This document shows, piece by piece, positions 3,389 to 16,912 of a DNA stretch of 36,190 nt. The stretch is taken from NCBI GenBank assembly GCA_017424105.1, contig JAFPBK010000124.1:1-36190 (forward strand), read 5' to 3'. The notes under the pieces are model-generated. The model saw only the letters and a list, made by a program, of their open reading frames with translations, did no database searches and was not told the origin of the DNA. The translations under genes and the position numbers were made by a program. This stretch comes from Kiritimatiellia bacterium (GTDB lineage Bacteria > Verrucomicrobiota > Kiritimatiellia > RFP12 > UBA3636). Positions within the stretch are counted from its first letter, which is position 1, and each line of letters begins with the position of its first letter.

Positions 3389-4852
3389 TTATATACGTTT
3401 TAGAATAGGGGATACAATAATTAACCCAATAAGAAGAATTGCTAGAGGAAGGTAGACTGCTAATCTAATTGCCAGATCTGACCATCCATCGGCAGGAATT
3501 CCTGAACTTAGCATAGTTGCTTCAGCAGGAATCATTTTGTCTGTAAAATCATTTCCTTTTAACCATTCAATAGCAGAAAAGATAAATAACTTATTACCTG
3601 AGATGCCTTGACCTATCATTGCATTAGAGATAATCGAATCATCTCCGCAAACAACTATACGTGTATTTTGTTTTTTGCCCAAATCATCTGGTTTGCCAAG
3701 TTGCACTGCGGCTGCAATTGTTTTTGGAGATTCAGGTTGTTGTGTAGAAGGATCTGTGAGAATCAAAGGGAAGAATTGAGGTTTATCAGCTAATTCTTTT
3801 GTTGTGAGATACATCTCTGAAACAGGAGAAAGGAAGCAAGGTGCAGAGAATGTTGTTGCAATATTTGTAAGCGGTTCTGTTATCTCATGCTGGTTGTAAA
3901 TTGTTGTGGTTGTAGGTTTAATTCCATATGACTTACCACTAGCAGGAGGTGAGAGTTGGATATTCCATAAATTAAGAAGAGGACCTAAACCATTTGCATG
4001 GTATGACCCAAGTAGAAATAATGCCTTACCACCATTATTTAGATATGTTGAGATTGCATTTATTTCTGTTTCAGAGAAGATAGTTGTTGGACCTGCAATG
4101 ACAAGAATATCACAATCATTAGGAATTTTATTCTCACTACCTAATTGTAGAAGTTCAATGTCATTGTCATAAAGTTCCAGAAGGTGTGCGATATTTGAAG
4201 CACCAGTATGTTTATCCGCACTTGTTGGATTATATTCGCCGTGACCGCTCAAAAAATAAATTTTAGATGAATTTGAATGAAGAAGTTTATGGATTGCAAG
4301 AGTACAAACAGATTCACCTATAAAATTTGACGCAAGATTTGTATTTGTTTTTTGCGTGTTTGGAGAAAAACCGGACAATTCTGCTTCAGAGATACTACGG
4401 AATTCAAGACCACGAGTTATGATAATTGAATTAACTTCAACATCATATTTTTTTAGTATTGCAGCTGTTTCGGTAATATCAAGATTTGCATCAATAATTT
4501 GCGTTTCAATATTTAGTTGGGAGAATTGTTTTGATATTTCTTGATATTCCTTCAAGAGACGGCGAGCAGGTTTTCTAAAAGGGTGTGAACGCTCAAATAT
4601 AGAAATGATTTTAAGCTCGCCTTTTGTTTCGCGTAGGATATCAATAGATTGTTTACTTAAACCATTTGGAACGAGAGAATCATAGTGATATCGAACATAG
4701 ATACGCGAAGCACAAAGATTAGTTAAAAAGAGAAGAATAGAAGCGAAGAGAATAGAAAGAAACACATTAAGCTTAAAAAAGCCAATGGTTCTTTTTATGT
4801 TTTTTTTATCGCTTCTATTCTTTTTCATTTTAATTACTCGTTCCAAAGCCAT
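3389..4852 (-). CDS. GldG-like ABC-transport auxiliary membrane protein
   Basis: 487 aa with one membrane segment near the N-terminus (about 29-50), a large extracytoplasmic region and a second segment at the C-terminus (about 462-484, rich in L and I, ending SPILKRI). The middle contains the features of the GldG / ABC-type auxiliary family: DSLVPNGLSKQSIDILRETK at the start of the soluble part, IYFLSGHGEYNP, and DILVIAGPTTIFSETEINAI. Such proteins normally sit beside an ABC ATPase and a permease (gldA, gldF). Neither is present here, so this copy is an orphan within the window. An alternative start at codon 9 (base 4828) is possible. A small perfect hairpin (4853-4869) lies immediately upstream. 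Confidence 0.75.
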   Translation of the reverse strand: MALERVIKMKKNRSDKKNIKRTIGFFKLNVFLSILFASILLFLTNLCASRIYVRYHYDSLVPNGLSKQSIDILRETKGELKIISIFERSHPFRKPARRLLKEYQEISKQFSQLNIETQIIDANLDITETAAILKKYDVEVNSIIITRGLEFRSISEAELSGFSPNTQKTNTNLASNFIGESVCTLAIHKLLHSNSSKIYFLSGHGEYNPTSADKHTGASNIAHLLELYDNDIELLQLGSENKIPNDCDILVIAGPTTIFSETEINAISTYLNNGGKALFLLGSYHANGLGPLLNLWNIQLSPPASGKSYGIKPTTTTIYNQHEITEPLTNIATTFSAPCFLSPVSEMYLTTKELADKPQFFPLILTDPSTQQPESPKTIAAAVQLGKPDDLGKKQNTRIVVCGDDSIISNAMIGQGISGNKLFIFSAIEWLKGNDFTDKMIPAEATMLSSGIPADGWSDLAIRLAVYLPLAILLIGLIIVSPILKRI

Positions 4853-11143: not shown

Positions 11144-12499
11144 CTATTTTGCACTCTGCTGGCGAATAACTTCATAAAATGCTAACGCTCCAGCAACACC
11201 AGCATTTAGTGAACCTACCTTACCAAACATAGGTAGACGTGCCAGGTTGTCACAGCGCTCGCGAACTAGGCGACCAAGACCCTGTCCTTCACTGCCAATT
11301 ACGATACAAACCTTGCCTTTAAAGTCAATGTCTGTATAATTCTTGGATTCAGGAAGAGCCTCAAGACCTGTTGTCCATACATTGTATTTCTTTAGTCTGT
11401 CAATTACTTCAGAGATATTTGGAACAAGAGCAATGCGAATATGCTCTGCTGCACCAGCTGATGCACGAACTGCTGCAGGAGTTACACCAACTGCTCTGTC
11501 AGCAGGAAGTACAACACCCTTAACACCTGCGCACTCACAGGAACGAATGATAGAACCTAAATTCTGTGGGTCAACTACATGGTCAATGATAACAAAAAGC
11601 TGATTCTCTTCATCCTCTTTTTCTGCCTCTGCATATAGCTCATCGATATCTACATAAGGATAGTCAGCACAAACAGCAACAACACCCTGATGATTTGCAG
11701 AATTCATCCATGCATCTAGTGTCTCACGCTTATGCTTAAGAATACGAATACCACGCTCTTCACATGTCTTCTTAATCTCATCTACTTCATCGCTATCCTT
11801 TACACCATCAGCTAGAACCATATCTAGTACCTGACGGCGATTTGCTCTTAGCATCTCGATTACTGGCTGGCGACCAAATAGTAGCTCACCTTCTGGGCGT
11901 GAAGGAACAGACTCAAGCTTCTTTGCTGGTGCTACATCCTCAGCAGCATCAAAGCTCTTGCGCTTAAAGCCATTGTCTCTCTTCTCATCACGGTCAAAGC
12001 TACGCTTTTCATCGCGCTCCCATGGCTTCTTAAATCCGCCATCACGCTTGCCACCGCCGAAGCCGCCACGATCGCGCTTCTCACCGCGACCAAACCCGCG
12101 ATCTTCGTCACGCTCCCATGGCTTCTTAAATCCGCCATCGCGCTTGCCACCGCCGAAGCCACCACGCTCGCGCTTCTCACCGCGGCCAAAGCCACGATCT
12201 TCGTCACGCTCCCATGGCTTCTTAAAACCGCCATCGCGCTTGCCACCGCCGAAGCCGCCACGATCACGCTTCTCGCCGCGACCAAAGCCACGATCTTCAT
12301 CGCGCTCCCATGGCTTCTTAAATCCGCCATCACGCTTGCCACCGCCGAAGCCACCACGCTCACGCTTCTCACCACGGCCAAAACCGCGATCTTCGTCACG
12401 CTCCCATGGCTTCTTAAAGTTACCACCATCGCGCTTTGATGAACCTGCATCATTATCGCGCTCCCATGGCTTTTTGAAAAATGCTGTAAATTTACTCAT
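11144..12499 (-). CDS. rlmB: RlmB-like SpoU-family rRNA 2'-O-methyltransferase with repeat-rich N-terminus
   Basis: The last 246 residues (206-451) are a complete RlmB-type enzyme, which methylates the 2'-OH of G2251 in 23S rRNA with S-adenosylmethionine. They show LLFGRQPVIEML (substrate-binding domain), IIDHVVDPQNLGSIIRSCEC, then IVIGSEGQGLGRLVRERCD and RLPMFGKVGSLNAGVAGALA of the knotted SPOUT fold. The first 205 residues are an unusual addition: six copies of KPWERD, four of them inside nearly identical 32-residue units (30-157) rich in Arg, Gly, Lys and Asp. This region is surely disordered and is likely to bind RNA. The exact rRNA target is inferred from the family. The gene follows the RRM gene by 26 bases. 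Confidence 0.9.
   Translation of the reverse strand: MSKFTAFFKKPWERDNDAGSSKRDGGNFKKPWERDEDRGFGRGEKRERGGFGGGKRDGGFKKPWERDEDRGFGRGEKRDRGGFGGGKRDGGFKKPWERDEDRGFGRGEKRERGGFGGGKRDGGFKKPWERDEDRGFGRGEKRDRGGFGGGKRDGGFKKPWERDEKRSFDRDEKRDNGFKRKSFDAAEDVAPAKKLESVPSRPEGELLFGRQPVIEMLRANRRQVLDMVLADGVKDSDEVDEIKKTCEERGIRILKHKRETLDAWMNSANHQGVVAVCADYPYVDIDELYAEAEKEDEENQLFVIIDHVVDPQNLGSIIRSCECAGVKGVVLPADRAVGVTPAAVRASAGAAEHIRIALVPNISEVIDRLKKYNVWTTGLEALPESKNYTDIDFKGKVCIVIGSEGQGLGRLVRERCDNLARLPMFGKVGSLNAGVAGALAFYEVIRQQSAK
12029..12412 (-). repeat. Four tandem 96-bp in-frame repeats
   Basis: Four 96-bp units encode residues 30-157 of the methyltransferase, each KPWERDEDRGFGRGEKR then E or D, followed by RGGFGGGKRDGGFK. 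The variable residue alternates E, D, E, D, and the bases around it alternate too (GCCACCACGCTC against GCCGCCACGATC on the plus strand), which suggests that a two-unit block of 192 bp was duplicated. Other scattered differences do not follow this alternation. Partial units flank the array on both sides. It is visibly richer in G+C than the surrounding sequence. Confidence 0.95.
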
Positions 12500-12525: not shown

Positions 12526-13143
12526 TTAGCGATTAGTTTGGCGTGTATTTGTACGTGCCTCGTTAACATGAATCTTGCGGCCCTTAATCTCTTTGTTGTT
12601 TAATGCTCGGATTGCTTCCTCAGCTTCTGTGCGATGAGGCATCTCAACAAAGCCATAACCCTTTGATTTACGGCTATTGTGCTGTGTGATGATGCGAGCA
12701 GATGTAACAATACCAAACTTCTCAAATTCCTTGCGTAGCTCGGAATTACCCATTTCGTAGCTTAGATTACCAACGTAAATCTCTACTGCATTTGGGTTAG
12801 ATTTAAAGGACTTTTTCTTGCCCTTGTTATTAGCTGCCTTTTTCTTTGATTTAATAATTGATGCAATTACAAATAGAATAATTACTACAACTAGAATAAT
12901 TACTACAACGATAGCAATCCCACCATAAATAGGAGCAGAATTGCATTCCTCGTCTGCACAAGCTTCTTGTGCTGGTTGCTCTGTTGTTGTTATTACTTGT
13001 CCTGCATCTTCTACTGGTACAATATCTTCTGTAGCAGGAGTCTCTGCCTGTTCGTTTGCTACAGTAGTATCAACTACTTCATTTGTCTTTTCTTCAACAG
13101 CTTCTGAAACTGCCGCTATTGAATTGTTGGATATATCTTCCAT
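12526..13143 (-). CDS. Membrane-anchored RRM RNA-binding protein
   Basis: 205 aa from the ATG at 13143. The open frame extends 16 codons further to a GTG at 13191, but only the ATG has a plausible ribosome binding site (GAGAAAG). Residues 1-70 are acidic and Thr/Glu-rich, 74-97 form a strongly hydrophobic membrane segment, and 98-113 are Lys-rich. Residues 121-196 are a canonical RRM with RNP2 IYVGNL (122-127) and RNP1 KGYGFVEM (161-168). The positive charge after the membrane segment predicts that the RRM faces the cytoplasm. Small bacterial RRM proteins are usually soluble, so the membrane anchor is the unusual part. It lies between rpoD and rlmB. Its RNA targets are unknown. Confidence 0.85.
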   Translation of the reverse strand: MEDISNNSIAAVSEAVEEKTNEVVDTTVANEQAETPATEDIVPVEDAGQVITTTEQPAQEACADEECNSAPIYGGIAIVVVIILVVVIILFVIASIIKSKKKAANNKGKKKSFKSNPNAVEIYVGNLSYEMGNSELRKEFEKFGIVTSARIITQHNSRKSKGYGFVEMPHRTEAEEAIRALNNKEIKGRKIHVNEARTNTRQTNR

Positions 13144-13313
13144 TTTGTTTCTTTCTCGGTTTCTTCCGTGGATTTTTTTATTGCGCTCCACATACGCTGG
13201 TTCTAGTTAGGCACGAGAGGATTTCGGATACATAAACTTTTTTGCACAAATAAATCCCGTCGCACTCATCGTCTTCTCATACTAGGAAGCCTTCCAGCCT
13301 CCAAAATTGTTTA

Positions 13314-15806
13314 TTAATTTCCGTCAATAAATCCTTGTAAACGCTTTAAGCGGGTTGGGTGGCGTAGTTTCTTAAGAGCCTTAGCTTCAATTTGGCGAAT
13401 ACGCTCACGTGTAACATTGTACTCCTTACCAACCTCTTCAAGTGTCTTAGCATAGCCAGTGCTTAGACCAAAGCGAGCCACAATAACTTGTTTCTCACGC
13501 TCGCTAAGAGTATCTAATACCTCAGAGATTCTTTCCTTCAACATTGCATATGAAGCTTGATCTGCTGGATTTTCTGCGCCTTGATCAGCAATAAAATCAC
13601 CAAAGTGTGCATCTTCGCTGTCACCTACTGGGCTTTGCAAAGAAATTGGTTGCTGTGACATTTTAATCACCTGACGAACTCTGTCCAAAGGAAGATTCAT
13701 TTTCTCAGAAATCTCCTCAGGAGTTGGCTCGCGGCCCTTTTCTTGAACAAGTGTCTTTTGTACGCGAAGCAGACGATTGATTGTCTCAATCATATGCACT
13801 GGAATACGAATTGTTCTTGCCTGATCTGCAATCGCACGAGTAGCTGCCTGACGAATCCACCAAGTTGCATAAGTGGAGAACTTGTAACCACGGCGATATT
13901 CAAACTTCTCAACAGCCTTCATTAAGCCTGTGTTACCTTCTTGAATCAAATCAAGGAAGGATAGACCACGATTCATATAGCGCTTAACAATAGAAATTAC
14001 AAGACGTAGGTTTGCTTCAACCATCTCTGTTCGTGCCTTTGCACCTTCCGCCAGAGCAGTGCGAAGCTTATCAAAGTCATGTAGGAATTCCTCTGGTTCC
14101 ATTAAGAATTCGCTAGCAATTTCTTCTTGTTTTGCTGTAATTTCTTCTAGCTTCTGTTGGCGAGCCTTTGTCTTGCGCTCTTTTTCTACTTGCTCTTTCT
14201 CTACAATCAAATTCTTGTAAACTTTGTAGATTTCTTCCTCTGCACGCTGAGCAAGATTTTCAAGAGTCTTCTGCTTGAAACTTAGATTTTCATAGTTAGC
14301 AAGAAAGTCTGTGTGCTTTGCATTTAGCTTTGCTTGCTTCTCTGCAATAATTGATTCGCGACGCTTTACAGAAAGATTTGCATTGTTATTCTTTGCTTTT
14401 GATACAGCATCATAAGCCTTGAATAAATCTTCCTTTAGGGAATTTAGATCCTTACGGAATGTTTCAATCTTAGCTGTGTATGCATCACGATTATCTGCAA
14501 GTTTATCCATAACGATGCGATCAAAGCGATCTTCTTTTTGCTCAATCTGATCAAGCAAATCAAGATACATTCTAGTTGCAAAGCCGTAACGATTGAATTT
14601 TTCTTTGATAATCTTTTCGTTTTCTTCAATGCGGATGCAAATATCACGCTCCTGTTCGCGAGTTAGTAGCTGTACTTGACCCATTTGGTGAAGATACATA
14701 CGAATAGGATCGTCATAGAAATCTGGGCGAGGTTGTGCTGTAGCACCTGCTTCTTGAGCCTGATTCTGTTTGTTATTAAGATACTCATCAACGTTTGATG
14801 ATGTAATAACATCAATTTGAAGTCTGTTTAATTCAGAGATGTAAAGATCAATATCGTCAGCCTCAACTGTGTGCTCAGGTAGGATATCGTGAATATCTTC
14901 GTAGGTTAAGAAACCACCCTTTGATTCTGCTGTCTTAACAAGTTCTTGAAGCTTTTCAAATTCAAAGTTTGAGTGACGAGAACCCATAGTAAAGGATTCC
15001 ATATCTTCTTCTGATTCGCCAGGGATAGCAAATCCCTTTGAATTGATGTAGCGGTCACTATCGTCATCAGGAGCAGAAAGGAAATCATCGTCGTCATCGC
15101 TAGCTGCAACAGGTCCAATTTCCTCATCATCTTCATCGCCATCGTTATGAACAGAATTACCACTATTTTCTGTTTTGATGATTTCGTTGATAATCTTCTC
15201 GTCAAATTCTAGGACCTCTTCATCTAGCTCTGCAAGCTCATCGTCTGAAGGAGCGATTTCTTTGTTATCGTCAAAATCTCCATCAAAGAAATCATCATGT
15301 TCAAACTCCGAGTTTGGATTGTAATCATCAAAATCATCAAACATATCTAGGTCACTATGGCGATTGCTGCGACGAGCAGGCTTGTCAAATGCTGGATCGT
15401 CATAGCTGTCAAAACCAATATCAGAGTCTAAATCATCGTCATCATCGTCAAAGTCATCAATACGAGGAGCTGATTTCTTAGGCTTTTCGTTCTTCACTTT
15501 TTCTGGGATAGCCTTTGAAGTCTTTACTGTTTTAGAGGAGCTTTTCTTGCTGTCCTTTGAAGTTTTTGTTTCTACAACGTCTTTCTCTTCTGCTTGTTTC
15601 TTTGTGTTATCTGCTTTTTTCTCTTTTGAAGCTTTTGTTGATTTTGTGAAAGTATCAACCTTTTCATTTTTCTTTGCTTCAGCAGCTTTAACTTTTTTCT
15701 CTTCCTTTGCAGCAGTGTCATTCTTAACTACTTCTTTTTTCTCAGCAGTAGTAGATGATTTCTTTGTTTCGGTAGATTTTTTTGTGGTTGTTGTAGTTTT
15801 TTTCAT
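13314..15806 (-). CDS. rpoD: Primary RNA polymerase sigma factor (sigma-70)
   Basis: 830 aa. The conserved parts are region 1.1 (about 285-345), region 1.2 ([20 protein letters not shown]), a long non-conserved stretch with coiled-coil character, region 2 ([20 protein letters not shown], then [20 protein letters not shown] and [14 protein letters not shown]), region 3 ([17 protein letters not shown]) and region 4 ([20 protein letters not shown]). It therefore recognises -10 and -35 elements like those listed here. Before region 1.1 lie about 110 residues made almost wholly of Lys, Thr, Glu, Ser and Ala, and then about 150 very acidic residues including [13 protein letters not shown]. This makes it far longer than the roughly 600 aa of E. 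coli RpoD. A hairpin is present in its leader (15833-15859). Confidence 0.96.
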
Positions 15807-15895: not shown

Positions 15896-16912
15896 TTATT
15901 TTATTCCCTCGCCTAAAGCATTTGTATTTTTAGGATCTATGCCTCGGATTAGGAACCAAAGAGTATTTTGTGGTATTGTACCAATATTGAATGTTGATTG
16001 TAGTTGCTCGATGTGACCATCAACAAAAACAGTGTAAGCAAATCCAAAATCAGTTACACCCGTATCGTTTAAATTGCCTTGTTTTCTGCGCTGGTGAACA
16101 GGTAAAAGTGTATCAAACTTATCGTCTTTAGAGCTTTCTCTGTTCCATGCAACCAATACGCTGTCACCTTGGCGGCAAATATCCTTACGTGGAAGATTAA
16201 ACTTGCCTTTGTCTGAATCGTTGCTTGGAACAATAATTTCAGCAAACATTAAAAGCTTGGAAGCTTCAGGAGTGAATGTTTTTTTGTTTTCACCGTCGCC
16301 GTAAGCAAATGATTCATCTGTGCCAATACGTGTTATTGTTCTGTTGTGCCATGCAGAAGGATAGTGCTGTCCATAGAAAAATTCGTTCATAGCATATGTG
16401 CGATAAACTTTAGATTTGTCTTGATTAACACTTTTCTCTGTATATGAAATTTTTGCGGAAGCAGGGCAAACATAATGTTCAAGAGATTCGCTCATGTATT
16501 CAAAGATTACACCATTCTGAACACCGAATAGAGCATCATCACCATGTCCTCTGTCATGCTTGAGGCTGGAGGATTGGCTCTTTTCACCTTCTTTGCCAGC
16601 CCATTTTGAGTTTAGTGTGTCAATGTCATGATCGGAAGGAGTCCATGCGGTCCATCCGCGGCGCTCCTCATAACGTCTGCTACGGGTATTGAAAATTTCA
16701 AAAGATTGAGCGTAAGGGAAACTGCCACCATGCTCGTTTGCATAGCTTACGCATGCAGTATGCAATTGCTTAAGATTGGTTCTGCACTTTTCATCCTGAG
16801 CTTTAGATATACCCTTTGTGATGGCTGGGTATGTCATAGCAGCAAGAATGCCAATAATAGCTAGAACTATGAGAAGTTCTACAAGTGTAAAGCCATGCAA
16901 TCTTTTGTTCAT
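15896..16912 (-). CDS. Prepilin-type N-terminal methylation-domain protein (pseudopilin-like)
   Basis: 338 aa. The N-terminus is a classical type IV prepilin/pseudopilin signal: a short basic leader, the cleavage motif G-FTLVEL, then a hydrophobic helix (LLIVLAIIGILAAMTYPAIT). The rest resembles the DUF1559-like proteins that are multiplied in Planctomycetes, Verrucomicrobia and Lentisphaerae, including a late FVDGHIEQL of the 'DG' motif type. After peptidase cleavage the protein would stay anchored by its helix and join a type II secretion or pilus-like assembly. No other such genes are present in the window. AAAGGGA precedes the start, and two good promoters lie upstream. It is the first gene of the minus-strand run that continues with rpoD. 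Confidence 0.85.
   Translation of the reverse strand: MNKRLHGFTLVELLIVLAIIGILAAMTYPAITKGISKAQDEKCRTNLKQLHTACVSYANEHGGSFPYAQSFEIFNTRSRRYEERRGWTAWTPSDHDIDTLNSKWAGKEGEKSQSSSLKHDRGHGDDALFGVQNGVIFEYMSESLEHYVCPASAKISYTEKSVNQDKSKVYRTYAMNEFFYGQHYPSAWHNRTITRIGTDESFAYGDGENKKTFTPEASKLLMFAEIIVPSNDSDKGKFNLPRKDICRQGDSVLVAWNRESSKDDKFDTLLPVHQRRKQGNLNDTGVTDFGFAYTVFVDGHIEQLQSTFNIGTIPQNTLWFLIRGIDPKNTNALGEGIK

Follow-up and report, generated by a model that had tools for sequence, protein, structure and literature searches.

The window analysed here, a stretch of 36,190 nucleotides from a Kiritimatiellia bacterium (contig JAFPBK010000124.1), encodes a 205-residue RRM protein between rpoD and rlmB. The genes and features of this region are listed below in coordinate order.

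11144..12499, minus strand: rlmB, with a repeat-rich extension at the N-terminus, adjacent to the RRM gene only in the window's family (TIGR00186; synteny)
12526..13143, minus strand: putative membrane-anchored RRM protein, 205 residues (ORF; RRM_1 match; start and ribosome-binding region common to relative L033)
12568..12780, minus strand: RRM domain with RNP2 IYVGNL and RNP1 KGYGFVEM (PF00076 match; RNP residues invariant in 22 orthologs)
12790..12831, minus strand: Lys-rich linker from helix to RRM, about residues 105-118 (translation; positive-inside statistics over relatives)
12832..12921, minus strand: predicted single transmembrane helix, about residues 75-104 (19-residue hydropathy; AlphaFold2 helix)
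12868..12909, minus strand: 18-bp tandem repeat lengthening the helix in the window genome (TRF period 18, 2.3 copies)
12925..13143, minus strand: acidic low-complexity N-tail, residues 1-73, predicted to lie outside the cytoplasm (net charge; low pLDDT)
13144..13313, minus strand: leader between rpoD and the RRM gene, highly conserved within the genus and containing a hairpin of conserved arms (identity to L033; consensus fold)
13314..15806, minus strand: rpoD, the housekeeping sigma factor and the only neighbour kept throughout the clade (Pfam/NCBIfam; neighbour clustering)

The ORF starts with the ATG at 13143, and the same start is found in the close relative L033. This ATG was taken as the start because L033 has an identical ribosome-binding stretch upstream (GAGAAAGAAACAAAATG) together with an upstream stop. 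A longer GTG start, which would yield 221 residues, was ruled out by the in-frame TGA just upstream in L033. Start codons in the comparison were picked by rule rather than proven.

The protein consists of four consecutive parts, a disordered N-tail, a hydrophobic helix, a Lys-rich linker and a C-terminal RRM. Residues 1-73 carry a net charge of -17, and the maximum 19-residue hydropathy reaches 3.94, starting from residue 76. RRM_1 (PF00076) is the sole Pfam domain, matched over residues 122-192 with an E-value of 2.9e-22 and 78.8 bits against a gathering cut-off of 20.7; no catalytic domain was recognised in the window protein with Pfam. The residues Y123, G162, G164 and F165 are invariant across 22 orthologs, and the aromatic positions of RNP1 and RNP2 are intact. 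The AlphaFold2 model, computed from the window protein aligned with that of L033, displays one confident helix (residues 75-104, with a mean pLDDT of 89 at residues 81-90), a disordered N-tail (pLDDT below 50 at residues 9-71) and an RRM core of β-α-β-β-α topology; the disordered tail pulls the overall mean pLDDT down to 61. Structural similarity search of the model using Foldseek returned RRMs, the top match coming from Acinetobacter baumannii. The original prediction of an acidic N-terminus, a hydrophobic helix, a Lys-rich stretch and an RRM, encoded between rpoD upstream and rlmB downstream in one strand run with yajC, secDF and the gene for RNase Y, is thus borne out by the profile matches and the structural model. 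As the 18-bp tandem repeat makes up part of the helix, the helix length is local to the window genome; relatives retain a hydrophobic segment built of other residues.

Comparison with known proteins placed the RRM close to the Rbp type, represented by Bacteroides RbpB and Porphyromonas gingivalis RbpPg1 (PDB 7JLY), with which it shares a single RRM of related sequence and fold. It matches the NCBIfam model Rbp_regulator (NF058537) along almost its whole length at 98.6 bits, just short of the cut-off of 100, which makes it a close relative rather than a formal member. In RbpPg1, as in the RRM-1 proteins that have been described, the RRM is N-terminal and a disordered C-tail comes after it (PMC12119571). 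By contrast, the window protein carries its RRM at the C-terminus (about residues 121-200), behind the predicted membrane helix, and its gene is fixed beside rpoD. Another likeness is found in Synechocystis Rbp2 and Rbp3 and Anabaena RbpG, RRM proteins implicated in the membrane location of mRNAs, with a conserved N-terminal region, a divergent C-terminus and photosynthetic mRNAs at thylakoids as targets (PMC11500504). Placement of mRNAs at a membrane by an RRM protein is proposed here by analogy with them; they are not described there with an anchor of their own, whereas the window protein is predicted to have one. A literature search, whose coverage left out most subscription papers, brought up no case of a transmembrane anchor in a bacterial RRM protein. 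Relative to the known single-RRM bacterial proteins, the combination of a C-terminal RRM with a predicted anchor of its own, in one clade and fixed beside rpoD, is new.

An RRM homolog was found in 58 of 59 relatives searched, and in nearly every examined genome of the order the best homolog is encoded immediately after rpoD, in the same orientation. A script gathered 73 rpoD-linked loci; as two of them (L033 and L035) sit on the same contig, the arrangement was recovered in 72 sampled genomes besides the window, from more than 20 families of the class Kiritimatiellia. The linked gene is also present in many other families, namely f8, f9, f18, f19, f24, f25, f27-f30, f32-f34, f36-f38, f41, f42, f44 and f47 of the class. 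Representatives of f7, f10, f12-f17, f20-f23, f26, f31, f35, f39, f43 and f45 showed no such gene downstream of rpoD, and neither did 16 loci of the phylum outside the class, one of which (L188) spans only 513 bases. No anchor of this kind is encoded by 19 RRM genes from other genomes of the phylum, outside the class, where hydropathy in the frame before the RRM peaks at 1.36. A pattern-based scan picked up only two relatives among genome contigs and none among viral contigs. In a maximum-likelihood tree of 91 RRM domains, computed from only 80 columns and containing several long branches, linked and unlinked proteins are split at a branch with 99/92 support. The lone exception, L106, is a protein of genus g9 nested among the linked g9 copies, and its short locus shows no rpoD. 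The rpoD-linked proteins are therefore a single orthologous clade.

Within this clade, a single hydrophobic segment, positively charged on its C-terminal flank, precedes the RRM in the window protein and in 61 of the 72 linked genomes. The sequence of the segment is hardly conserved, that of L084 reading MMLGAGAVAGLAAGFAAGFAIGR with a hydropathy of 1.81. Hydropathy is at least 1.6 in 57 of the 61 orthologs and lower in L056, L063, L141 and L143; the segments of L141, L063 and L056 are weak. In 58 of 59 scored proteins, the C-terminal flank of the segment carries a higher net charge than the N-terminal one; the mean is +4.6 over the 15 residues that follow the segment, against -0.3 on the preceding side. 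Under the positive-inside rule, such an asymmetry predicts an N-out/C-in topology with a cytoplasmic RRM. A cleaved signal peptide followed by a periplasmic RRM was rejected on the same charge asymmetry. The motif GxxxG is present in 39 of the 59 segments and may favour helix pairing.

The helix is absent in 11 linked genomes, all belonging to genus g9 of family f4. Relatives at the same position without the helix had been named by the original prediction as evidence against an anchor, and they do exist in this one genus; the loss is, on its placement in the tree, derived, because g9 is nested within the anchored clade. In the place of the helix, g9 proteins carry a short, hydrophobic, weakly amphipathic N-terminus resembling MSLFNSLLSFIGLGKK. 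Its 11-residue hydrophobic moment ranges from 0.48 to 0.76 and is reached by shuffled sequences in 0.3-27% of trials, and only some members exceed most of their shuffles; membrane binding of this N-terminus is only suggested.

These comparisons bear on whether the protein might be an ordinary chaperone of the soluble Rbp type, acting in cold or stress response, in which the hydrophobic segment serves oligomerisation or is incidental. The likeness of the RRM to bacterial Rbp proteins, the repeat expansion within the window's own helix, the helix-less g9 proteins and the frequent GxxxG motifs would all fit such a protein. However, high hydropathy and charge asymmetry are kept across families, and 13 unlinked paralogs from the same genomes show no anchor-like N-terminus of their own. 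The window protein also lacks the arrangement of an N-terminal RRM with a disordered C-tail and no membrane helix that marks the soluble Rbp proteins, and we regard a soluble chaperone as very unlikely.

Among the ORFs clustered around the linked genes, only rpoD (50 loci) and, with the ORF cut-off applied, the RRM gene (39 loci) are widely recurrent; a cluster of 32 loci on the opposite strand was taken as antisense ORFs of rpoD. Of the rpoD-RRM-rlmB order, whose conservation the original prediction had proposed as a check, the first half extends over a large part of the class, whereas the RRM-rlmB half is confined to the window's family (f1). The next commonest real gene, recurring in 14 loci, encodes a pseudopilin-like protein with an N_methyl motif, located upstream of rpoD (15896-16912 in the window). 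In one locus (L081, contig C2 of genome G021), a second sigma-70 gene lies in tandem close to rpoD, and this genome has three rpoD-like matches.

The gap between rpoD and the RRM gene is usually about 60-150 bp. On the coding strand of the window, neither an intrinsic terminator nor a sigma-70 promoter match was found between the two genes, and co-transcription is therefore likely. The 170-bp leader of the window is 84% identical over aligned positions to that of L033, another species of the genus, compared to 53% at rpoD third codon positions. It contains a putative hairpin of 13 pairs (GUGCGA.GGGAUUU with AAAUCCU.UCGUGC), in which the arms are kept and the loop is changed between the two sequences. 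This pairwise comparison is evidence that the leader is under constraint, with the hairpin as a candidate rather than a proven structure; its folding energy is not significant on its own (z -0.93). Outside the genus, no recognisable spacer match was found within the family, and Rfam gave no match in the window.

Since the gene follows a sigma factor gene directly, the protein might act on the sigma factor, either through feedback on rpoD by binding of the rpoD-RRM transcript or through membrane control of RpoD in the manner of an anti-sigma factor. Such a role would fit rpoD being the only widely conserved neighbour, as well as the leader with its conserved hairpin arms and diverged loop. The gene order indeed resembles that of sigma and membrane anti-sigma pairs, in which the gene of a single-pass membrane protein comes directly after the sigma gene. 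Membrane anti-sigma factors usually have a cytoplasmic sigma-binding domain N-terminal to the helix. In the window protein the domain order is the opposite, with an acidic N-tail predicted outside and an RRM at the C-terminus as the only domain, RNA-binding rather than sigma-binding, and the partner is the housekeeping sigma factor. Moreover, the intact RNP residues point to RNA, and the leader match is confined to the genus. Taken together, we consider a role tied to the sigma factor rather unlikely.

Further along the same strand run, the window encodes yajC, secDF and RNase Y, with rny about 8 kb downstream of the RRM gene. RNase Y is itself anchored in the membrane. The protein might thus tether RNA for decay, its RRM handing RNA to the membrane-bound RNase Y in the way of a degradosome scaffold, which is consistent with the membrane anchoring of RNase Y and with the string of genes through to rny that recurs in G006, the one further genome checked. 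The likeness to the RNase Y and RNase E machinery extends to an RNA-handling domain fixed to the inner membrane, as predicted for the window protein; those proteins are, however, nucleases, and the window protein has no recognised catalytic domain. Against such a tether, rlmB-tgt-yajC-secDF-ispD adjoin the RRM gene only in family f1, and in other genomes rny does not appear among the neighbours conserved with the RRM gene. Owing to this restriction, the RNase Y and YajC/SecDF genes to which the original prediction pointed are a weak functional cue, and an RNA-decay tether appears unlikely. Between localised translation and decay, both put forward in that prediction, the sequence does not decide.

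Two further features were seen in this part of the window. The ORF at 3389-4852, located between a GDSL lipase gene and the gene for RNase Y, gave a weak GldG match (47 bits against a cut-off of 390), and this order is kept in G006. The N-terminal extension of RlmB is encoded by 96-bp repeats (11981-12418; 4.6 copies; KPWERDEDRGFGRGEKR.RGGFGGGKRD). In L060 a KPWDR/RG-rich protein follows the RRM gene at the position of rlmB, so an RG-rich disordered tail may be a common trait of this rRNA methylase throughout the family.

The reading we favour, with moderate confidence, is that of a membrane-fixed RNA chaperone or regulator made from the rpoD transcription unit and co-expressed with the housekeeping sigma factor. 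It would be a bitopic inner-membrane protein with the N-tail outside and the RRM inside, the latter binding RNA and keeping it on the cytoplasmic side of that membrane. The targets would most likely be mRNAs for membrane and exported proteins, and the benefit may lie in local translation or protection rather than decay. That RNA is held at the inner membrane had also been proposed in the original prediction; the anatomy argues for it, namely the segment in most linked genomes, the positive-inside charge, the invariant RNP residues and the single clade, whereas RNase Y and the Sec genes add little. Linkage to rpoD is in itself silent on membrane mRNAs, and the helix loss in g9 and the families of the class without the gene at the rpoD position count against a membrane-fixed chaperone or regulator.

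A search of 40 genomes of the order, in which the controls worked, recovered no Hfq. RRM proteins serve as the main RNA chaperones in Bacteroidota (PMC12119571, PMC11697453), and this negative result leaves room for a comparable role here. We tentatively extend the favoured reading to a clade-wide device for RNA localisation, in which the self-anchored RRM protein, co-expressed with the housekeeping sigma factor, would bring mRNAs to the inner membrane, whether or not they are being translated, in bacteria that lack Hfq, with the leader RNA as an autoregulatory target and one lineage using a peripheral N-terminal helix instead; this fuller version is possible but doubtful. An RNA-binding domain and a predicted membrane anchor, combined in a single chain whose gene stays next to rpoD, bear directly on how bacteria place mRNAs at the membrane and on whether this can happen without translation. 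In Kiritimatiellia, a little-studied group from gut and environment, the protein probably keeps RNA at the inner side of the cell membrane, and it may be a main factor of post-transcriptional control across a large group whose searched genomes yielded no Hfq.

The window's genome also encodes a second RRM protein (L075; G000:C129:8157-8369), which comprises 80 residues without an anchor and sits on a long branch common to its genus.
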